The notes beneath the pieces were generated by a model that was not told where the DNA came from, did not search any database, and saw nothing but the letters and a program-made list of their open reading frames with translations. A stretch of 26,530 nucleotides of DNA from a virus, in IMG/VR virus record IMGVR_UViG_3300032287_003139, positions 1 to 26,530 of that record; one strand, given 5' to 3'. A program made the position numbers and the translations under genes. Within the stretch, counting starts at the first letter, position 1, and the number at the start of each line of letters is the position of its first letter. Below are positions 8,582 through 19,350 of this stretch, piece after piece.

Positions 8582-11500
8582 TCAAACTTTAGAATACTGT
8601 AATATCTTCTCCTGAATTCCATTGCTTGTTTCTAGCGTTCTGACTACTATATCCAGTCTAGTTGAAAGCATATTCATAGTATCTAAGTTAAGAGATATCA
8701 TTCTTTCAATTGCTTCGTTTGAACTAGACGGAGATGTTATTGTAGATGTTGCTGCGGAAGCATCAGTTGGTGCACCGTCAGCCGGAGTTGTTGCTAATTT
8801 TGCTAACACTGATCTAGGTTCTAATGGAGTTACAAGCTCGCCACCGTGCATTTCAACAGGGTAGCCTGAATCAGGACCGTCAAACATTCCACCTGTTCTC
8901 GCTTTTAATTCGAAGTGAACTGGGTCGCCGGGCACAGTTTGTTTCATTCCATACTTGTTCATTAGCCCTACAGCAGTAGGATCTGAGAACTGCTGTATGT
9001 CTATTGCAGCGCCTCTCTCATGTTTACTAGTTCCCGGTCTTGCAATTGCCATTCCTGCTGGACCTCTACCAGGACGGCCGGCTCTCTCTGATTCATCCCA
9101 TAAACGTTTTTGATCAGCCGAATCACGTTTGGCACTGTTTACCTGTATTTTTCGACCGGTATTTTTTTGGTATTCTTCTGCTGCACTAGCAACAGCTTTT
9201 TGTATACCAGAATCTAGCCCTTTAAAAGTTTCTAGAGTGCCACTTCTACCTGCAAATACTAATGACTTACTTACATCACCGACAGGTCCTGTTGATCCCA
9301 TATCGCTAGGACCTTTAGCAAAAGATTCTGTCCCTGATGATGACTTGCCTGAACTTGCCGTGACTGGTGCTGCGCCACCACCTGTAGGTTGAATCCCTGC
9401 TACTTGCTGAGAATAAGAATCAACTTTGTTAAGTACTTCTCCTCCTGTATAACCTGCGCCTCTAGTTATAGCATGTCCCGCAATCTGACTAGTAGCTAAC
9501 AAGTTAGCTTGAGATTGTGACATTGGTCCACTTGCCATACCCAACTGTTTTTGCATTGCACCTTTAGTGCGTTGCATATACCAAGAAACTACGTTTGCAG
9601 CTACTTTGGGATCATTAACCATATCAGGGTCTTTTACTAATCTATCATCTCCGAATATAGCCTTAGATGCTTCTGCATAGTTAGTCTTGCCAGTTAATTG
9701 AATATACCCTCGACCTCTAAATTTCCATCCGTCACCCGGTTCAACATTGCCCATTCTACGACCGATATCAGTATCTTTGCCGTACATGAATTCGCCCATT
9801 GACTGCGGGTTAGATTTGATTTGATTTAATTCTTGATCTGTTTTCCCTGATGCACGTTGACCAAACACATGTTTAATGCGTTCGTTACTAGTCTTGCTGT
9901 AGTCTAAGTTTTCATTAACTACTTTGCCACCGGACTCTTTCATTACATTACCAAGAACAGCATTTAGATAAGACTCATCACCCATGCCTTTTTGCATTAG
10001 TGCAGATTTTATGTCACCTAAATTCTGTTTTACATCTTGATCTACTGCTGGTCCTGCACCTGATGGCATCGCTGGTACAGGAGGTGCTGCTGCCCCTGGT
10101 GGGGGTAATGCTCCGCCTCCACCTGCAGGGGGTTCTCTAAGCTGCTCACGTAATCTAGATGCATCACCCATACCTGCTTTAAGTGCATCTGTCATCGAAT
10201 CCCCTACTTCTTGCGGGATATTACGAGTCAAATCTTTCTTTAGCTTCATGTCAAATGAGCCAAATGTATTTGTCATGCCACTTAAAACATCATTTGAATC
10301 CTCTAAGTAGCTAGATAATCTTGCAAATTGATCAGTCAAGCTAGCTGATACATCTAGTAGGTTCTCAAGTTGAGAACCACTTTGTGCGTGATCTTCTTGT
10401 TCTCCTAATTTAGGCTGTGCAATAGATTTAGGTAATGATGAGTCCATCATATCTAAAATCTGTTTAGCGGCTGAACCCATTCCTCCTTCTGCCGGGGTGA
10501 CAGCTTTTGGCTCAAAGCCTTTTTGCACAGTAAATTTTGGTGCAGATTCAGGTGGTGCTATAGGTGTCACTTTACCTTTTGGCTGTTCTGCTACACTGTC
10601 GATAGTAGCAGCACCTATCTTGTTAGCTCTTGCTAAGAATTCTTGTTTGACTTGTAAGTCAGCCTTTGCCATTGCTACTTGTTTAGAACCAACTGATTTC
10701 TTATCTCCCAAATCTTTAAGTTCTTTTTCGTATATTTCTTTCTTGCGATCTAGGTATTCTTTGTATAGTTTTTCATCTCGTTTAGCTAATTCAAATTCAC
10801 TAAATGTAAAACTTTCAGCTTTTTTAGTTTCTTTGACAGTAGCATCTGGTGTTTTTGCAACTACTGCAGGTACCTTAGGTGTTTCTAATGTTTCTGCTGC
10901 AGGCAATTTAGTAGCAACTTTGACTGCCTTAATTGGAGTTTCTGTAGTCTCTACTGGTTTAGTTATTTTAGCAGCACCTACTTTTTCTGCTCTTTCCGCA
11001 AATTCTTGTTCGGCTTGTGTTTTAGCCTTAGACATTGCTGCTCGTTTACCAAATCTAGAATCATCTCCCCACGCCTTTAGCTCTTTTTCGTATAATTCTT
11101 TCTTGCGATCTAGATATGCTTTGTATAATTTTTCGTCTTTCTTAGCTAATTCATTTTCGCTAAAAGTAAATGACTCAGGTGCTTTTGCTACCGGTACTTC
11201 AGGTATCTTTGCTCCAGGAACTTCAGGTGCTTTTGCTACCGGTACTTCAGGTACCTCAGGTGTTTTTGCTACCGGTACCTCAGGTGTTTTTGCTACCGGT
11301 ACCTCAGGTGTTTTTGCTACCGGTTTTATCGCTTCTTCTGTTTTAGTTATTTTAGCAGCACCTACTTTTGCTGCTCTTTCTGCAAACTCTTGCTCAGCCT
11401 GTGATTTAGCCTTAGACATTGCTGCCTGTTTACCATATATGGCATTATCACCCAAAGCTTTAAGTTCTTTTTCGTATAGTTCTTTCTTACGATCAGAATA

Positions 11501-14401
11501 CTCTTTGTATAACTTTTCGTCTTTTTTAGCCAACTCCATTTCGCTGAAAGTGAATTCGATGCTTTTAGCTCTCTTGGGTTGTCCCTCACCTGCGACTGGT
11601 TTAGCAATATCTTTAACACCAGGCTCTTTAACAGATTCTGGTTTGTTGAATCTAGATCCTATTAATCCACCTACTAGCATTCCTATAGGACCTAGTAGGG
11701 CTCCCATAGCCATACCAGTAAAAGTACCTGCTCCAAATGCCGGTGTTTTTTCTTTTGCTACTGGAACTTCTTTGTTCTCTACTACCGGTTTTACAAATTG
11801 TGCTTTAGGTATTTCTTTTCTGTCAGTTGATAAAACAGCACTAGTCTTAATAAATTCTGGTTTATTATCACTAGTACCTGCCATTTTTACTAAAGGTTCC
11901 AAAGACTTAACGATTGCGACCGGTAGTGGTAATGGACTTATTATAGATACTTTGACTATTTCATCTTTTTTACCTAACGGTGTTTCTGTTTTAGCTTCTT
12001 TTTCGTCTTTTTTAGCATCGGCCTTTTTAGCTGCTTCATCTACTTTCTTATCAGCACTATCAGTCATCTTAGCGATACTACCGCCTGCAACTTTACCAAT
12101 TGCTTCTCCACCTTTGCTACCCATCCATCCACCAAGAGCAGCACCCATAATCCCACCGATGATGGTACCCACAACAGGAACTGCTGATCCGATAGCTGCG
12201 CCCGCTGCTGCTCCTGCCCATGCGCCACCAGCACCACCGGCTGCTGTGCCTACTCCCCCGCCAACAACTTCACCCTTTTCGACTCTTGCTTCTTCTTTAG
12301 TTAGTTCCCCTGCTTTTTGTTTCTTATCAACTTCTTTTAGACCTTGGTAAGTGTCTACCGCCGCAGTGCCTACTGACAATGCTGCACCTATTAATGGTGC
12401 TGCTTTAGCAAATCCTGCTAGAGGGCCAGCTAATTTGCTTAATGCACTTCCTGCAGTGGTTGCTGCTGTAGCTGCACCACCTGCGCCTGCTGTACCTGCT
12501 GTTCCTACTGCCGTTGCTGCTACCGGAGCCGCTGTTGCTGCTGCCGGTGCTGCGGTCGCTGCTGCTCTTGCTACAGTAGGAGCCGCTGTTCCTGTAGCTG
12601 CTTGTGCCGCTCTTCCGGCTGCTACTCTTTCTAATCTTGCTGCTCTATCAAACCCTTTAGTAGGATCTAATGCTCTACCGCCTCTTGTAGTAGGGCCGCT
12701 AGGACCGGGGGCAGGACCAGGACCACGTGGTCCTCCTTTTGCTCCACCTGCTTTACCCAATGCATCTTTTAGTGCATCTGCACCGGATTGCAAGATCGAT
12801 TTACCTGCAACAGCGGCTAGTGCGCCGGCGGCTGCATATGCTGCCGCTGTTAATAATCCTACTGCAATGGTTCCTGCACCAAACCCACTTACCAATACGT
12901 TACCACTTGCAATTAATTTGTCGAATGCTTTACCGGCTTCGATTTCCAACGTTGTCATTTTGGCTCTGGCGTCTTGAGCCGGATCTGCACCTGGTTTACT
13001 AGCTTTATCTCTTGCTGCTTTAGCCTTCTTAAGTTCTTCGGTCATGTCTTTATCGCGGTTTGCGTTAAAGTTTTCCATTGACCTACGATTCATACCAAAT
13101 AACTTTTGAGTCTCCTCACTATGTACTGCTGCGCCTCCAACTGCGTCAACTGCTTGTCCTAGCTTTTTATTATAGGTATTCATGAACTCGCCGGTTACGG
13201 CTGTCATGTCACCACCTTTTTTGATAGCAGCTTCGAACTTCTCCATAGGAATGCCCAACCGTGCCATGTGAGCATTTTGGTCAGTCCATGTACCAGTTGC
13301 AAGTCTAGCTTGCATTGCTGCTGTAAGTTGAGCATCTCCTAATGAAGATATATTGGCTAAAAAGTCATTTCTAGCTTTTGCTTCATTTCGTTTAGCTTCA
13401 GCTCCTTCTTTATCACCGGCTGCTGCTAATCGTCTAGCTTCATTTTCTAACTTTACTTGTGATATTTGAAAATTAGTAGCAGCTAATGCTTCTTTTTGTT
13501 GCTTTTTGATGCTCTCGACATTCTCACCGGTTATTGCAGACAATGCTAATAAATTATCAGTATACTCTAATGAAGCTTTTTGAAGTGCATTTCTATCTTT
13601 TAATTCGTTGCTAATACTTCTACCTGAAGTACGCTGTAATGCAATATAATCAGCCTGATTCTGTATCAACTGCTCTTGGCTAATGCCCATTCGTTGATAT
13701 TCTTCTCGCTGCTTGTTAGTGATCTTTGTTAAGTCAGCAAAAGCTTTTACACCTTCACCCGTAGTCCCACCTAGATTAGTAAGGGCTGGTCCCAAAGACT
13801 GTATTGGTTTTACCAACAAGTCCATGTTCTTTGATGTGAGACCAGCACCGTGTGCCATCTCCATCAATTGTTTAGTAGTAAACGAACCTGCAGTACCAAA
13901 CTGTGCTATTGCGTCATTTGCTTTTAATAAGTTGTCTGCTTGCTGGGTGTATATACTAGCTAGCTTACCTGCTGCCTCAATAGTTCCACCGATAGCTTTA
14001 CCTAACATTCCAAAGTTACCCAGTGCTTTACCCATAGCACCAGTCATCTGTTCTATACCATCACTATATTTGGTAAAACTTCTAGATGGATCTTGACTTA
14101 CTAAGTTATTGAATAGTTTTTTTGTAGCAGCTACGCCGTTCTGCAATGCAGCGGCATAGTTTTCCATTACTTTGTTGTATTCTTTGGCTGACTCAATAGC
14201 TTCTTGTTGCGCTCTTGTCAGACCACTTGTACTTTTTTGCAATGTACCAAATGCAACACTTTGCTGTCTAATATCTTCAAATTTAGCAGCATCTTCTTTT
14301 TTGAGCATGGACATTCGCATTTGCATGTCATGGCCAAGGGTGTCATTCAGTCTATTGACTGCTTCTGTCAGTTCTATGTTGGGATTAATTTCGTAAGCCA
14401 T
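8582..14401 (-). CDS. Tape measure-like tail protein with GH19 and M15 cell-wall hydrolase domains
   Basis: A 1939-residue protein that probably sets tail length and is delivered into the cell wall on infection. The first ~500 residues are helical with heptad-like segments. Residues ~505-790 are Ala/Gly-rich, with glycine-zipper hydrophobic stretches (GTIIGGIMGAALGG). Residues ~948-1267 hold three similar charged repeats and a Pro-rich spacer. A GH19/lysozyme-like domain lies at ~1461-1615 (KESGG with a candidate catalytic Glu; WKFRGRGYIQLTGKTNY). An M15 peptidase lies at ~1729-1835 (SKHERGAAIDI and DPVHFEL, the zinc-binding His/Asp/His set). The role is inferred from size, domain layout and fusion to wall hydrolases. 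T4's gp29 is far smaller and lacks enzymes. Position next to the portal is not T4-like. No strong ribosome site precedes the ATG. Confidence 0.78.
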   Translation of the reverse strand: MAYEINPNIELTEAVNRLNDTLGHDMQMRMSMLKKEDAAKFEDIRQQSVAFGTLQKSTSGLTRAQQEAIESAKEYNKVMENYAAALQNGVAATKKLFNNLVSQDPSRSFTKYSDGIEQMTGAMGKALGNFGMLGKAIGGTIEAAGKLASIYTQQADNLLKANDAIAQFGTAGSFTTKQLMEMAHGAGLTSKNMDLLVKPIQSLGPALTNLGGTTGEGVKAFADLTKITNKQREEYQRMGISQEQLIQNQADYIALQRTSGRSISNELKDRNALQKASLEYTDNLLALSAITGENVESIKKQQKEALAATNFQISQVKLENEARRLAAAGDKEGAEAKRNEAKARNDFLANISSLGDAQLTAAMQARLATGTWTDQNAHMARLGIPMEKFEAAIKKGGDMTAVTGEFMNTYNKKLGQAVDAVGGAAVHSEETQKLFGMNRRSMENFNANRDKDMTEELKKAKAARDKASKPGADPAQDARAKMTTLEIEAGKAFDKLIASGNVLVSGFGAGTIAVGLLTAAAYAAAGALAAVAGKSILQSGADALKDALGKAGGAKGGPRGPGPAPGPSGPTTRGGRALDPTKGFDRAARLERVAAGRAAQAATGTAAPTVARAAATAAPAAATAAPVAATAVGTAGTAGAGGAATAATTAGSALSKLAGPLAGFAKAAPLIGAALSVGTAAVDTYQGLKEVDKKQKAGELTKEEARVEKGEVVGGGVGTAAGGAGGAWAGAAAGAAIGSAVPVVGTIIGGIMGAALGGWMGSKGGEAIGKVAGGSIAKMTDSADKKVDEAAKKADAKKDEKEAKTETPLGKKDEIVKVSIISPLPLPVAIVKSLEPLVKMAGTSDNKPEFIKTSAVLSTDRKEIPKAQFVKPVVENKEVPVAKEKTPAFGAGTFTGMAMGALLGPIGMLVGGLIGSRFNKPESVKEPGVKDIAKPVAGEGQPKRAKSIEFTFSEMELAKKDEKLYKEYSDRKKELYEKELKALGDNAIYGKQAAMSKAKSQAEQEFAERAAKVGAAKITKTEEAIKPVAKTPEVPVAKTPEVPVAKTPEVPEVPVAKAPEVPGAKIPEVPVAKAPESFTFSENELAKKDEKLYKAYLDRKKELYEKELKAWGDDSRFGKRAAMSKAKTQAEQEFAERAEKVGAAKITKPVETTETPIKAVKVATKLPAAETLETPKVPAVVAKTPDATVKETKKAESFTFSEFELAKRDEKLYKEYLDRKKEIYEKELKDLGDKKSVGSKQVAMAKADLQVKQEFLARANKIGAATIDSVAEQPKGKVTPIAPPESAPKFTVQKGFEPKAVTPAEGGMGSAAKQILDMMDSSLPKSIAQPKLGEQEDHAQSGSQLENLLDVSASLTDQFARLSSYLEDSNDVLSGMTNTFGSFDMKLKKDLTRNIPQEVGDSMTDALKAGMGDASRLREQLREPPAGGGGALPPPGAAAPPVPAMPSGAGPAVDQDVKQNLGDIKSALMQKGMGDESYLNAVLGNVMKESGGKVVNENLDYSKTSNERIKHVFGQRASGKTDQELNQIKSNPQSMGEFMYGKDTDIGRRMGNVEPGDGWKFRGRGYIQLTGKTNYAEASKAIFGDDRLVKDPDMVNDPKVAANVVSWYMQRTKGAMQKQLGMASGPMSQSQANLLATSQIAGHAITRGAGYTGGEVLNKVDSYSQQVAGIQPTGGGAAPVTASSGKSSSGTESFAKGPSDMGSTGPVGDVSKSLVFAGRSGTLETFKGLDSGIQKAVASAAEEYQKNTGRKIQVNSAKRDSADQKRLWDESERAGRPGRGPAGMAIARPGTSKHERGAAIDIQQFSDPTAVGLMNKYGMKQTVPGDPVHFELKARTGGMFDGPDSGYPVEMHGGELVTPLEPRSVLAKLATTPADGAPTDASAATSTITSPSSSNEAIERMISLNLDTMNMLSTRLDIVVRTLETSNGIQEKILQYSKV
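10602..11557 (-). repeat. Three ~72-codon repeats in the tape-measure gene
   Basis: Three diverged copies lie at about 11343-11557, 10958-11173 and 10602-10813. Each encodes FTFSE-x-ELAK(K/R)DEKLYK, then DRKKE(L/I)YEKELK, then a segment ending (K/N)(V/I)GAA(K/T)I. The first two copies are closer to each other than to the third. They are charged and helical, and separated by Pro/Thr/Val-rich linkers. Confidence 0.85.
11179..11325 (-). repeat. 24-bp tandem repeats encoding VAKTPEVP
   Basis: Five full 24-base units, one partial unit and a nine-base insertion. On the plus strand the unit is close to ggtgtttttgctaccggt plus acctca. They encode VAKTPEVP-like octapeptides between tape-measure repeats 1 and 2. 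The near-identical units at 11260-11325 suggest recent expansion. They are in frame with the gene. Confidence 0.9.
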
Positions 14402-14472: not shown

Positions 14473-15303
14473 ATGGCATTCGACAACAATCCACTAAAGC
14501 AGTATTTCAGACGGCCTGCAGTTTACATCAGACTACCTAGCGGTGGAAAATATTACCCGGCGGGCGTTCTCGAAATGCCTGACAACGGCGAGATTCCTAT
14601 CTATCCAATGACTGCGATAGATGAAATTACAACTAAAACCCCGGACGCGCTGTACAACGGCACCGCAATGGCTGAACTAATTAAAAGCTGTGTACCTTGT
14701 ATTAAGGATCCATGGGCCGTCAATAGCATGGACCTAGATGCTCTACTAATCGGCATCAGAGCCGCTGGAGGTGGCAATGATATGGAGATTGAGTCTACCT
14801 GTCCCGCATGCAACGACTATGGAAAGTATGGCATCAATCTTGTAGCAATGCTTAGCCAAATGAAACCCGGCGATTATGGTAGTGAATTTAAAATTAATGA
14901 TCTATCTATTAAATTCAGACCTCTTAACTATAAAGAAATGAATGAGGCTAGCATAGGACAGCTAGAAATTCAACGTACTTTCATTATGTTAGAGCAAGAA
15001 GAAAATGAAGAAGTACGAAAAGAAAAAAGTAAAGATGCTCTAAAGAGAGTAACTGCGTTAACCATTAAGTTATTGACAGGAGCCATCGAATACATTCAAA
15101 CTCCTACTGTTCGTGTGGATGACAAAGCATTTATTCAAGACTTCTTGAACAATTGTGATAAAAATATGTATGTAGCTATACGTGATTTCAATGCCTCGTT
15201 GAAATCAGAAACAGAAATCAAACCTCTGAAAATTTCATGCGTACATTGCAAACACGAATATGATCAACCATTTACACTGAATACATCTGATTTTTTCGGC
15301 TAA
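14473..15303 (+). CDS. gp26: Baseplate hub / tail assembly protein (gp26-like)
   Basis: A 276-residue protein resembling the T4 gp26 family (T4_baseplate). Typical features are the N-terminal segment YIRLPSGGKYYPAGVLEMP (18-36), IPIYPMTAIDEITTKTPDAL (41-60) and the split zinc-binding pairs C110-P-A-C113 and C256-V-H-C259, which probably form one zinc ribbon. In T4, gp26 is needed for baseplate hub formation; its exact place in the finished particle is unclear, so an assembly role is possible. An AAAAGGAAC ribosome site precedes the ATG. The stop overlaps the next start as TAATG, so the two genes are translationally coupled. Confidence 0.82.
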   Translation: MAFDNNPLKQYFRRPAVYIRLPSGGKYYPAGVLEMPDNGEIPIYPMTAIDEITTKTPDALYNGTAMAELIKSCVPCIKDPWAVNSMDLDALLIGIRAAGGGNDMEIESTCPACNDYGKYGINLVAMLSQMKPGDYGSEFKINDLSIKFRPLNYKEMNEASIGQLEIQRTFIMLEQEENEEVRKEKSKDALKRVTALTIKLLTGAIEYIQTPTVRVDDKAFIQDFLNNCDKNMYVAIRDFNASLKSETEIKPLKISCVHCKHEYDQPFTLNTSDFFG

Positions 15304-15527
15304 TGCTTCTACGCCTCGATCCCGAGGGCATACAGAAGCTCGTAGACAACTACGAAAAGGCAGTCATTGACATAAAGAAAAGTGCTATGTCAATGGCGTG
15401 GTACATGCGGGGTGGTGCGACATATGAAGATATTCTGAATATGTCCTCCACCGAACGCGGTCAACTAGCTGAACTAATTGACAGTAATCTAGAGATTACA
15501 AAAAAGTCTGGATTGCCATTTTTTTAG
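15303..15527 (+). CDS. Small tail-assembly protein (gp51- or chaperone-like)
   Basis: A 74-residue helical protein starting inside the stop codon of the gp26-like gene (TAATG). The segment MAWYMRGGATYEDILNMSST, followed by ERGQLAELIDSNLE and ending GLPFF, has the pattern seen in small tail assembly chaperones: a Trp-Tyr helix followed by a Ser-Thr-Glu-Arg helix. In T4 the gene next to 26 is 51, a hub assembly factor much larger than this. A role in folding or loading the long tape-measure protein is likely but inferred from size, coupling and the pattern. No terminator follows directly; the structured region starting near 15616 comes next. Confidence 0.65.
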   Translation: MLLRLDPEGIQKLVDNYEKAVIDIKKSAMSMAWYMRGGATYEDILNMSSTERGQLAELIDSNLEITKKSGLPFF

Positions 15528-15615
15528 TAAAACAGTATACCTCTTTTCTAGATAAAATAATAAATGAAAGATTAAACAGCCGTAACTATTCATTTATCAA
15601 AATTAGTCTTTATAA

Positions 15616-16077
15616 AGATGTCCTTCGGACATCTAATACTTCACTAGTACTCACTTCGTTCGTACTACGTTCAGTATTCTACTGATTCTTTCTTATTGTT
15701 TTTGCTATATTAACATACGGAACATATTGCCGCTTTGAAGCCATGGTAGTGCTAAAAAGCACTACCAGTGGTTAAGGGAACTTGCCATGCCCGTCATCCA
15801 TTGTTGTCTGTCCCCCGTATATTCAGCTTGTTTGCTAATATACGCTACCGGTTGCTCTGTAAAGTTTATGGGATTGTAGTGAACCTATCAATGTCTTTCA
15901 ATTGACGATTCCGCAACGCACATTCTATATCTTCAAGACAAAATAGATATAGACTTGTTGAAGGTTCGCTTTGTCGATTGCCTTCTCGGTATTCCAAGGA
16001 ATCTAATCCTTGCTACTCCAGATCCGTCAGCACAGCACAACCTGTACAAACTCAAGGAGGGTCGAGCAACCCCGACC
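15616..16077 (+). ncRNA. Candidate large structured non-coding RNA in a 566-base gene-free gap
   Basis: Positions 15528-16093, between two convergent operons, hold no convincing gene but many hairpins. Stems: AGATGTC/GACATCT (15616-15634, loop CTTCG); TAGTAC/GTACTA (15645-15667); TCAGTA/TACTGA (15671-15685); GGTAGTGCT/AGCACTACC (15745-15766, loop AAAA, extendable to 15741-15771); CGTATATT plus AGC with GCT plus AATATACG (15816-15844); TCTATATCT/AGATATAGA (15924-15953), enclosed by CAATTGACG/TGTCGATTG (15899-15907 with 15972-15980); CAAGGA/TCCTTG (15995-16012); GGTCG/CGACC (16060-16077). The enclosing helix needs two G-U pairs, which pair only in plus-strand RNA, so the plus strand is favoured. 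No dedicated promoter or U-tract terminator is obvious; readthrough from the gp26 operon is the simplest source. I do not recognise it as tRNA, tmRNA, RNase P RNA or an intron. Confidence 0.5.
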
Positions 16078-16093
16078 AAACAAATTTAAAGAC

Positions 16094-16672
16094 TTAAGTG
16101 TTGTTGTTTAAGATAGGGAGAATATTTTGCGTTTGCAGATTTTGGATAGGTGACTTGGTGTCTTTTGTGCCTGAGTATGATTTAACTAAATCTTTGTTAT
16201 GTTTCCAAAAATGATCGAATTCTATAAAAAGCCAATCTCCGTATTTTTCAGATGTGTAGTATAAGAATTGATCGGTTATCCATGTAAACTTAGAAGGAAC
16301 ACATACGAATCTACCTTTTCTATTGAACTTCATCATTAGAATATTAAGATCCTCGGGTTCTGCTACTGCCATAAGTTGGTCTAGCCAACCGTTTAGCTGT
16401 TTACAATCTCCCGAAAGCATTAAATGAAACGGGAAATCTGCATAACTTTTGCATTCAGCATTAAACAGAGGAAAACTCTGTCCAGGTACAATATCGCCTT
16501 TGAATGAACGAATTTGACCTTCATGCAAATAGTCTTTGCGCTGCTGATTTTTGCCTCCCACATAAGCACCGGATCCCGGAGCGCGAATAAACGACTCTCC
16601 GTATAGTTTACTAAGATGTTGAGCGACTTCACGCTCAAAACTGGATCCTTTTGCTTTCTGTGGACTAGGCAT
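16094..16672 (-). CDS. PD-(D/E)XK nuclease, possible Holliday-junction resolvase
   Basis: A 192-residue protein with the layout of small PD-(D/E)XK nucleases: KGSSFEREVAQHL with Glu13, RAPGSGAY (30-37), KGDI with Asp60, and AECK with Glu73 and Lys75. Together these give the E...D...ExK metal site of Hjc-like resolvases and related phage nucleases. As the last gene of the gp47/gp46 operon it probably works on recombination or packaging intermediates and could stand in for T4 gp49 (endonuclease VII, a different fold). It could also be a restriction-type or repair nuclease. It starts 13 bases after the SPASM-like frame, with only a weak ribosome site. The last 30 residues are polar and probably disordered. 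Confidence 0.7.
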   Translation of the reverse strand: MPSPQKAKGSSFEREVAQHLSKLYGESFIRAPGSGAYVGGKNQQRKDYLHEGQIRSFKGDIVPGQSFPLFNAECKSYADFPFHLMLSGDCKQLNGWLDQLMAVAEPEDLNILMMKFNRKGRFVCVPSKFTWITDQFLYYTSEKYGDWLFIEFDHFWKHNKDLVKSYSGTKDTKSPIQNLQTQNILPILNNNT

Positions 16673-16685
16673 ACTATTACTTATG

Positions 16686-16964
16686 TTATGTTGATGCCGC
16701 TGAAATTATTTTCCATTGATTATCAAGGTTTGCTATATTTACAGGATTTGAAGTTTGACTATCATCGCATGTAGTAAAACAAATGCTATTTGGTACCGGT
16801 GACTCCCAACTATTGCTTAAACTATCAAAGTTTTCTTCTTCTAAAATTTTCTTTAACATTGGATTTAAGTTGGGGCCACCTCGATAAATGTAGCAGCATG
16901 GCAATATGTCACCTTTAGCAGTGACGAATAACTCGTTTGATTCTAATGCCCTGCAACGTATCAT
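16686..16964 (-). CDS. SPASM-like C-terminal part of the radical SAM protein (separate frame)
   Basis: A 92-residue frame that reads as the auxiliary iron-sulfur domain of a radical SAM enzyme: MIRCRALESNELFV (C4), AKGDILPCCY (C23, C24), then SICFTTCDD (C62, C66). This C...GxxxPCC...C...C layout matches the start of SPASM/Twitch domains, which are normally the C-terminus of one polypeptide. Its ATG overlaps the stop of the upstream frame (ATGA). It is in the -1 frame relative to the radical SAM part, and an A7 run lies 8-14 bases upstream of the shared stop. It is therefore either made by frameshifting as part of a ~303-residue protein, translated separately by re-initiation, or split by a mutation or sequencing error in the homopolymer. 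Confidence 0.75.
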   Translation of the reverse strand: MIRCRALESNELFVTAKGDILPCCYIYRGGPNLNPMLKKILEEENFDSLSNSWESPVPNSICFTTCDDSQTSNPVNIANLDNQWKIISAAST

Positions 16965-17596
16965 TTGTATTTTTTTCCTTTAGGAGGCTTCAAGAAAGGA
17001 ATATTAAGAAAGAATCTCCTGCTTACTTTTTCTCTGAAAGAAATAAATCCTAAATTTTCTGATAACTTTCTTGCCTCATCAACTTGATGTTCATTATGTT
17101 CAAACACAAGATATTCCCAGTGTGCTTTACCACCTGCAGCAATGAATGATTTAGCGTTTTCTATAATCTTTTCAAAGTCAGTATTTATTCTGTATATATG
17201 ATTGGTGTCCTTCAATCCATCAATGCTGAAAAAACAACTATCACCATTACGTGACAGTATATTACCTAATTTACTCCACCATATGGTGTCTCGTAGACTT
17301 CCGTTGCTGTTTATACTTAATGACATTCTAGGATTCACTTCTCTAAAATACTCAAATATCTTTATACAATCAGGTGCGGCAGCAGGATCACCGTAGTTAC
17401 CGCACATGTACATTGATTCTAATCTTTGTATGAACTCAATGTCAAACAACTCTTTTACTTTGTCCAATGACAATGAAACTGCATCCGTATCTTTATTGAA
17501 GTTAGGATCAACCTCTCTGGGACACATGGGACAAGCCGCGTTGCAGACGCTACTGGTCTCCATATGTAATTGCTTTACATTATTTCTATCAAACAT
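16961..17596 (-). CDS. Radical SAM enzyme, catalytic part
   Basis: A 211-residue protein with the radical SAM 4Fe-4S motif CxxxCxxC at C18, C22 and C25 (SSVCNAACPMCPREV). GNYGDPAAAP (about 67-76) corresponds to the glycine-rich SAM-binding region, and LSINSNGSLRD follows it. FFSIDGL near residue 120 fits the next strand of the partial barrel. It uses SAM to make a 5'-deoxyadenosyl radical; the substrate is unknown, and with a SPASM domain peptide or protein modification is common in the family. The start (ATG at 17596) overlaps the gp46 stop as TAATG, so it is co-translated with recombination genes. Near the 3' end, codons GGA AAA AAA TAC form an in-frame A-AAA-AAA slippery site four codons before the TGA. 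Confidence 0.88.
   Translation of the reverse strand: MFDRNNVKQLHMETSSVCNAACPMCPREVDPNFNKDTDAVSLSLDKVKELFDIEFIQRLESMYMCGNYGDPAAAPDCIKIFEYFREVNPRMSLSINSNGSLRDTIWWSKLGNILSRNGDSCFFSIDGLKDTNHIYRINTDFEKIIENAKSFIAAGGKAHWEYLVFEHNEHQVDEARKLSENLGFISFREKVSRRFFLNIPFLKPPKGKKYK
16970..16976 (-). other. Slippery heptamer A AAA AAA, candidate -1 frameshift site
   Basis: On the minus strand the zero-frame codons GGA AAA AAA TAC AAA TGA contain A-AAA-AAA in the phase used by canonical -1 frameshift signals such as dnaX. A -1 shift leads straight into ATA CAA ATG ATA CGT TGC, the frame of the SPASM-like domain, with no stop between. An A7 tract could also support polymerase slippage. Confidence 0.5.
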
Positions 17597-19350
17597 TATT
17601 CAACATCGACCGCAGTACTATATGAAGTAAATCCATTCTCCTTCACTACCTTTAGTACGTTGGGAACTCTACCTGCGAGTTCTTCTCTGTGTGATACTAA
17701 CCAGATTGATTTTTGCCTACGGCGAGACATGTCTTTAAGGATAGCTAGACTATTTTCTACACCCATAGTATCTAGTCCACTGTCAATCAATTCATCAATA
17801 AACAATGTATTGATGGGTGAGTACAAGCTCTCCCACACATCACGGAATGCAAAGCTAAGTCCCAAGATAAGTCGATTACGCTCACCACGCGATAGGTTAT
17901 CAAAGTCAAGTTCACGTCCTAACTCTGTGATTTCTACTTGCAGATCGTTTTTAAATACAACCTGATGTGGTAGGCCGATTTTGTCAAGATAATGAGTCAA
18001 CCTAGAATTTAAATAACTTAAGTTCTGATCAATAATCTTTTTGCGAACAAAACTGTCTTTACTTACCAATAGGTCTAGCAGGAACTTTTGGTGTTCCATC
18101 GTTCGTGTTAGTTTATTGATAGTATCAAAGCTAATTTCTTGTAGAGCCTGACTCTCCATTTCAACAATTTGTTCGGCATATGGATCAGATTCTTCAGCCT
18201 TCTTTTCAAGTTGTTTGATCAAGTTTTCTAGTTGAGAACTATGCTTGACTGCTTCAGCTTCGGTCTTGTAATGAGTGGTAGGTTTGGTACCTGCAACAAC
18301 AGGAAACTTAATCAACTCATCATACTGAAACTTTAAATCGTCAAGTAAGCTCTTAGTTTCATTTAGCGTAATTTGCTTTTTCGTAAGCACGGTTTGATGT
18401 TGATCATCATGAAACTCTTGACCACATGCATAGCACTTATGATCATTCAATGAAGTGATTTCAGACTCTAGCTTTTCGTAATTTTTATGTTCTTTGCTAA
18501 TATCTTTTAGTAAAGCTTTGACCTTATTATCGTATTCTGTGCTTAGTGTAACTTGTCGATTATATTGAATTAAATTCTTGTGGGCTTCTAACTCCGCACT
18601 AATATCAATCTCTACTAGTTGTTCATATTCAGCAGCCAAACTTGACAAATCCTCACCGTGTTTAGTTTTCCACAGTTTTTGTCTGCGCTTCAATGCTTCA
18701 ATCTGCTCTTTGACTCGCTTGTTCGCTTCTTCTACTGCCTTAACACGAAATTCTTCTTGTTGGATATCATCCTTCGTAGTTCTAAGTAGGTCTTTGATTA
18801 CTTCTGCTTTTTCAGACAGCAGAGTTATGCCGAGTAACTGTTCGATAATATCACGCTGCTCATTGGTTTTTAGTGCTAAGAACGGCTCAGAGTAGGTGTT
18901 GAGTGCAACAATATGTCTAAACATATCAGCAGACATGTTTAGTACACGTTCAATATACGCTTGGGTTTCTTTATTTTCACCTTGAGCATCATCTTGTGCT
19001 TTTTGTTGCACATTATTAACGTGGAACCTTAAAATATTAGGCTTGCGACCACGCTCAATCTTGTACTCAGTACCGTTAACGTTGAATTCAAGTGTAACCA
19101 ACATTCCTTTAGCATTGGTTCTATTAACCAGATTGTCTTTGCGAATATTGTTGATAGGAGTTCCGAACAGTGCGTAACTAAGACCTTGGATCAACGTGGT
19201 CTTGCCAGTGCCGTTTCTAGCACCATCACCACCTAAGTCTAAGTTCTCACCTAGAATAAGTGTTAGTTCTTTCTTGTCAAAGTCAACTGCTTGTGTAACT
19301 TGTCCGATTGACAAGAAATTACGTAATGTAATATTTTTTAAAATAATCAT
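17596..19350 (-). CDS. gp46: Recombination endonuclease subunit gp46 (Rad50/SbcC family ATPase)
   Basis: The ATPase partner of gp47 in DNA end resection, recombination-dependent replication and host DNA breakdown. The 584 residues show a Walker A at 43-52 (GARNGTGKTT), a long coiled coil on both sides of the zinc hook C306-Y-A-C309, the ABC signature LSRGERNRL (486-494), and Walker B with LFIDELIDSGLD at about 505-520. Length is close to T4 gp46 (560). In T4 the 47-46 order is the same, with small genes between; here a sulfotransferase-like gene takes that place and its stop overlaps this ATG (ATGA). The end overlaps the radical SAM start (TAATG). Confidence 0.96.
   Translation of the reverse strand: MIILKNITLRNFLSIGQVTQAVDFDKKELTLILGENLDLGGDGARNGTGKTTLIQGLSYALFGTPINNIRKDNLVNRTNAKGMLVTLEFNVNGTEYKIERGRKPNILRFHVNNVQQKAQDDAQGENKETQAYIERVLNMSADMFRHIVALNTYSEPFLALKTNEQRDIIEQLLGITLLSEKAEVIKDLLRTTKDDIQQEEFRVKAVEEANKRVKEQIEALKRRQKLWKTKHGEDLSSLAAEYEQLVEIDISAELEAHKNLIQYNRQVTLSTEYDNKVKALLKDISKEHKNYEKLESEITSLNDHKCYACGQEFHDDQHQTVLTKKQITLNETKSLLDDLKFQYDELIKFPVVAGTKPTTHYKTEAEAVKHSSQLENLIKQLEKKAEESDPYAEQIVEMESQALQEISFDTINKLTRTMEHQKFLLDLLVSKDSFVRKKIIDQNLSYLNSRLTHYLDKIGLPHQVVFKNDLQVEITELGRELDFDNLSRGERNRLILGLSFAFRDVWESLYSPINTLFIDELIDSGLDTMGVENSLAILKDMSRRRQKSIWLVSHREELAGRVPNVLKVVKENGFTSYSTAVDVE

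Follow-up and report, generated by a model that had tools for sequence, protein, structure and literature searches.

A structured, strongly covarying non-coding RNA beside the recombination genes of large uncultured T4-like phages

What is encoded in a stretch of 566 nucleotides (positions 15528–16093) that lacks any open reading frame of at least 60 amino acids? The window that we analyzed (26,530 nucleotides from IMG/VR record IMGVR_UViG_3300032287_003139) comes from a T4-like myovirus, with a major head protein, portal, baseplate hub, gp46/gp47 (SbcC/D), and gp55 late sigma factor. The gap separates two convergent genes: a small gp51-like ORF on the plus strand (15303–15527, assigned by synteny), which follows a gp26-like baseplate hub gene, and a PDDEXK “RusA-like” nuclease gene on the minus strand (16094–16672; PF24608, PHROG 244). 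A sequence-only reading had described the region as gene-free, which is correct, and had proposed that it holds a large phage non-coding RNA, read from the plus strand.

To collect homologous loci, we scanned IMG/VR with the gp26-like and nuclease proteins. In nearly all of the roughly 100 loci obtained, the interval between gp51 and the nuclease gene is 415–670 nt. A DNA profile of the RNA’s core found the RNA in 215 of 227 loci (some of these overlap on the same contig and some are partial). The profile also matched every locus among the listed matches from an independent scan with the sequence pattern of one hairpin (P10, below). At the loci with flanking sequence, the RNA lies on the strand of the nuclease gene, starts 0–70 nt past its stop codon, and converges on gp51. 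Where some relatives have about 600 nt of extra DNA (L163, L170, L177, L186, and L199), it separates gp51 from the 3' end of the RNA, which thereby keeps its link to the nuclease side. Each of 11 large contigs (90–525 kb) has a single match to our covariance model (R1), and it is very likely that these viruses depend on the RNA. One contig with the RNA, IMGVR_UViG_3300027749_002876 (L147; 524,565 bases), is among the larger phage contigs.

We did not find the RNA when R1 was run against the whole records of the phages PA5oct, Phosso, SCTP-2, and Atu_ph07; a single 17.6-bit match (E = 0.08) in four cultured-phage records was judged to be chance. When three diverse copies of the RNA were compared with cultured phages at the DNA level, no similarity was found, and a scan of GTDB with the P10 pattern gave two matches with no RNA around them, which we also attribute to chance. 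Near the same nuclease gene, PA5oct (L226, 3479–4991) and Phosso (L224, 3987–5000) have long stretches with small annotated ORFs or none, and these do not match the RNA profile.

For the structure statistics, we took 86 sequences that are less than 90% identical and scored on them a named structure with 84 pairs, including two pseudoknots. Across these sequences, 95.0% of the cells are paired; this percentage is inflated because the structure was partly derived from the same sequences, but the two-sided changes, which occur in 62 of the 84 pairs, are not. There are 1166 cells with two-sided changes, versus 330 in shuffles (sd 19), and the covariation score is 0.450, versus 0.170 for shuffles and 0.064–0.071 for slid registers. 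A covariation scan of all columns agrees with the named structure. Homologues share no conserved reading frame, and in nearly all of the roughly 100 loci the gap is open only in short, inconsistent frames. The sequence-only reading had named two observations that would speak against an RNA, namely homologues without compensatory changes or a protein frame across them; we looked for both and found neither, and there is strong support for the proposal of a large non-coding RNA. That the region folds by chance, or is a pair of terminators, has a negligible probability: convergent genes need terminators and the last two hairpins (P11 and P12) may act as such, but 62 covarying pairs in an RNA that is conserved at about 200 loci refute this explanation.

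Which strand is the RNA? Folding of the single sequence is uninformative on this point, because both strands fold far better than dinucleotide shuffles (z = -5.06 for plus and -4.65 for minus). In the homologue alignment, the non-Watson-Crick cells include 327 G·U pairs if read as the minus strand versus 63 if read as the plus strand; an earlier selection of pairs, made blind to strand, gave 195 versus 63. Because the non-Watson-Crick cells are mostly G·U only in the minus reading, we assign the RNA to the minus strand, and not to the plus strand as had been claimed. That claim drew on an enclosing helix (15899–15907 with 15972–15980) whose G-U pairs would hold only in plus-strand RNA, but this helix is not conserved in the homologues: covariation pairs 15901–15905 with 15888–15892 and 15975/15976 with 15967/15968. 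It also drew on a CUUCGG-type loop, which is C(UUC)G in the plus reading (no true UUCG tetraloop) and C(GAA)G in the minus-strand RNA.

G·T pairs are tolerated in single-stranded DNA as well, so formally we are describing a single-stranded minus nucleic acid, with RNA by far the likelier form. A single-stranded DNA structure, such as a replication or primosome-assembly site, would suit a locus that adjoins replication and recombination genes, but we consider it very improbable, as long-range pseudoknots and a candidate base triple are typical of RNA. In the candidate triple, the pair 15991–15846 with position 15863 is U-A*U in 38 and C-G*C in 15 of the 86 sequences, and these are the two isosteric forms of a major-groove triple.

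We infer from the conserved leader and the terminal hairpins that the RNA gene extends over 15616–16083 on the minus strand (about 450 nt); about 200 homologues found by profile, together with covariation, support it. Its conserved core of about 355 nt (15725–16080) reads from high to low coordinate, as do all of the elements described here. Hairpin P1 (16060–16077) forms the 5' end. P2 (16016–16059) has a CUCC/GGAG closing helix, an inner hairpin, and a conserved internal loop, UUGAG/GGAUCU; both P1 and P2 are supported by covariation. P3 (15995–16011) is a variable hairpin with two-sided changes in 4 of 4 pairs. There are two long-range helices: P4 (15846–15991), in which 15987–15991 pair with 15846–15850 (98.4% paired), and P7 (15851–15917), in which 15913–15917 pair with 15851–15855 (96.3% paired). 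Hairpin P5 (15960–15985) is 100% paired, with two-sided changes in four of its five outer pairs, and P6 (15921–15957) is 99.2% paired, with such changes in 10 of 10 pairs. P8 (15881–15911) and P9 (15817–15843) each have two-sided changes in nine of nine pairs. In pseudoknot PK1 (15812–15873), 15870–15873 pair with 15812–15815 (98.8% paired), and in PK2 (15804–15941), the P6 loop (15937–15941) pairs with 15804–15808 (99.5% paired; two-sided changes in 5 of 5 pairs). Toward the 3' end are P11 (15646–15666), which has a GA/GA internal loop and is specific to the RNA in large contigs, and the terminal hairpin P12 (15616–15634), which has the C(GAA)G loop, near-100% Watson-Crick covariation, and a weak U-run.

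Several stems that had been listed from the single sequence are real and covary (15924–15932/15945–15953, 15744–15753/15758–15767, 15816–15826/15835–15844, and 15616–15623/15627–15634), but the two pseudoknots and the long-range helices had been missed. A suggested competing pairing of 15931–15936 with 15958–15963 is unsupported, as those columns covary with other partners.

Hairpin P10 (15741–15771; UGGUAGUGC...GCACUACCA) is near-invariant: its sequence hardly varies, in contrast to most other stems, and 8 of its 13 pairs are invariant in the 86 sequences. Its exact pattern occurs in at least 120 viral stretches. P10 is flanked by two direct repeats on the minus strand, copy 1 at 15782–15790, (N)C-AU-GGCAA, and copy 2 at 15726–15733, (N)C-GGCAA-U, and changes in copy 1 are mirrored in copy 2. 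The first letter is the same in both copies in 79 of 85 sequences (G-G in 58, U-U in 16, C-C in 3, and A-A in 2), and other changes (GG to AG; CAA to CAU or CAG) are often found in both as well. Simple copying of the repeats by recombination is unlikely because copy 1 retains its extra AU. We sought a third strand for the repeats inside the RNA, in its vicinity, and, in four large contigs, close to gene starts, and found none. The co-changing repeats and the near-invariant P10 suggest sequence-specific recognition. A bolder proposal, which we offer tentatively, is that this is a core RNA, unrecognized before, that several lineages of large uncultured T4-like phages carry at one locus. Its mirrored repeats around an invariant hairpin would read a common co-evolving partner (RNA, DNA, or protein); the RNA would then be a new functional class, with the known motif Polynucleobacter-1 as one fragment.

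How might the RNA be made, and what might it do? It sits at the end of a run of gp55, gp47, gp46, and nuclease genes, directly downstream of the nuclease gene. Between the nuclease stop codon and P1, alignments show a conserved A/U-rich leader (16080–16093, minus strand; consensus AAAATTnG), which is possibly a processing site or a promoter. Searching for sigma-70-type promoters gave fewer than expected by chance, and no promoter was identified. Overall, the account that we consider rather probable is that a single-copy, minus-strand RNA of about 450 nt would be made with, or processed from, the transcript of the recombination operon (gp46, gp47, and the nuclease), or else transcribed from a promoter of its own at this leader. 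It would work in trans as a structural RNA (a scaffold or assembly RNA) that is needed during the lytic cycle, and it would belong to a superfamily of T4-like phage RNAs at one locus, with Polynucleobacter-1 as a partial known piece. A structural role seems the most likely, and we favor action in trans because the downstream gene is convergent and nothing on the same strand lies close enough behind to be regulated in cis.

The main rival is a structured element of the 3'-UTR, acting in cis to protect or regulate the nuclease, gp46, and gp47 mRNA and having no function as a free RNA. The RNA’s constant position, directly 3' of the nuclease ORF and on the same strand, would fit, and Weinberg (2010) flagged Polynucleobacter-1 as a probable cis-regulatory RNA (PMC2864571). 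We consider this unlikely, as two pseudoknots and about 355 conserved nucleotides are more than a stabilizer needs, and the RNA is retained where the upstream gene family is swapped (PDDEXK versus SegE). For example, the RNA is present at L010 and L011 although the PDDEXK gene is missing there, and L010 has a gene for SegE, of the GIY-YIG family, in its place.

The swap also bears on whether the RNA is a guide or cofactor of the adjacent nuclease, with a layout like that of omega-RNA and TnpB and with the mirrored repeats as guides. A structured RNA immediately past a nuclease ORF in all lineages, and two repeats that change together, would be consistent with this. The idea is weakened because two unrelated nuclease folds occupy the slot; in addition, SegE relatives from cultured phages sit elsewhere, without such a gap, and in four large contigs the surroundings of gene starts showed no complementary target motif. 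We regard a nuclease cofactor as improbable. The cultured phages with SegE that we considered (Melnitz, phiM12, ACP17, S-SM2, and BUCT-ZZ01) have a different gene context and no slot for the RNA.

Other parts of the neighborhood vary too. Between gp46 and the nuclease gene, the window encodes a radical SAM protein as two ORFs (16686–17596; the rSAM part and a SPASM part), and the presence of this protein differs strongly among relatives, which suggests a cargo slot. gp46 has two sizes among relatives, 584 amino acids (window, 17596–19350) versus about 692 (L010, 6168–8249), apparently because of a difference in an internal coiled-coil stretch. A moderately conserved element, CCGTAACTATTCATTTAT (15580–15597), lies just past the gp51 stop in many relatives, and others lack it. 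Read on the minus strand as ATAAATGAATAG, it looks like the core of a late promoter but would point into gp51. Likely late promoters of this phage ([AC]TAAATA or ATAAATA, a short distance before late genes, with a gp55-type sigma gene adjacent) lie upstream of 14473, 14401, 8553, 6749, 5778, 21941, and 22069. An ORF at 8582–14401 encodes a tape-measure-sized protein of 1939 amino acids whose C-terminal part has VanY and GH19-like matches.

Is the same slot filled in more distant relatives? At L020 and L016, where gp26 is more distant (38–46% identity), SegE is followed directly by another structured non-coding stretch. L020 has the same P1, a P2 in which CACC/GGUG replaces CUCC/GGAG around the same UUGA/AGAUUCU loop, and P11 and P12; L016 has a similar P1 as well as P11 and P12. 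Two scans with the SegE proteins of L016 and L020 gave at least 600 matches. Among the matches listed, gp46 lies upstream on the same strand in 138 of 160 loci examined, gp51/gp26 converge downstream in 71 of 160 (a count limited by the 2.5-kb flanks), and a P11-type core is found 3' of SegE in 78 of 152 loci, versus 1 after shuffling. The P11 hairpin occurs at most once per contig in four large contigs (200–260 kb). RF01718, the Rfam model of Polynucleobacter-1, matches 3 of 13 SegE loci tested, with 118, 64, and 59 bits, and the matches start just past SegE. A 2010 publication described this motif as a probable RNA from Burkholderiales and from freshwater and estuary samples (PMC2864571). 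The model covers only the 5'-terminal 140 nt or so of what appears to be a longer phage RNA, and Polynucleobacter-1 would thus be the 5' part of that RNA.

R1 gives chance-level scores in L016 and L020, and a possible homology between the cores of the window RNA and Polynucleobacter-1 is suggested by position and end elements rather than by core sequence. The window RNA and the SegE-linked RNAs are alike in being structured RNAs 3' of a nuclease gene beside gp46, with P11/P12-type hairpins at the end. They appear to belong to one proposed superfamily of phage RNAs, with the window RNA as a new and divergent lineage, and only a piece of that superfamily had been catalogued so far. Downstream of SegE at L309, L313, L289, L301, and L377, we saw several further RNA subtypes. 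In these, too, a hairpin is flanked by direct repeats that are almost identical (ACATGAAGTT occurs twice in L313, for example), and Rfam covers them only at the RF01718 matches.

These observations describe a large and very strongly covarying RNA, absent from Rfam, from giant phages that are uncultured but abundant as a group. They also give the orphan motif Polynucleobacter-1 a phage context (a slot beside gp46 in T4-like contigs) and its likely full length. To our knowledge, large phage RNAs such as GOLLD and ROOL are still without a function, and a further, unrelated large phage RNA at a fixed core locus enables comparison and experiment.

How does the RNA compare with known families? Rfam gave no match to the window, either at the gathering thresholds or at E ≤ 5, and none at E ≤ 1 to 15 homologous loci of the window’s type; neither the window nor these loci reached the 37-bit gathering threshold of RF01718. 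No Rfam intron model matched, which at the level of Rfam excludes a group I or group II intron, and ARAGORN called no tRNA or tmRNA in the window. The RNA is new to Rfam and is widespread in uncultured large phages. A literature search found nothing on it. GOLLD and ROOL are large, pseudoknotted, phage-encoded RNAs of unknown function (PMC12286853). The sequence-only reading had drawn this comparison without being able to match either family, and the search with covariance models agrees: this is a large phage RNA of that kind but, by Rfam's models, not a member of those families. The likeness (large, pseudoknotted, and phage-encoded) is by size and ornateness only, whereas the window RNA has a smaller core, a fixed place beside recombination genes, and no tRNA in the window. 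The omega-RNA, or reRNA, of TnpB is a structured RNA directly 3' of a nuclease ORF (PMC11061315). The window RNA has this position too, but the nuclease at loci of its type is PDDEXK or GIY-YIG rather than TnpB, and we saw no transposon ends. With Polynucleobacter-1, the likeness is one of place and of ends: Polynucleobacter-1 occupies the same slot in related T4-like contigs, past SegE and downstream of gp46, and the RNAs there end in P11/P12-type 3' hairpins like those of the window RNA.
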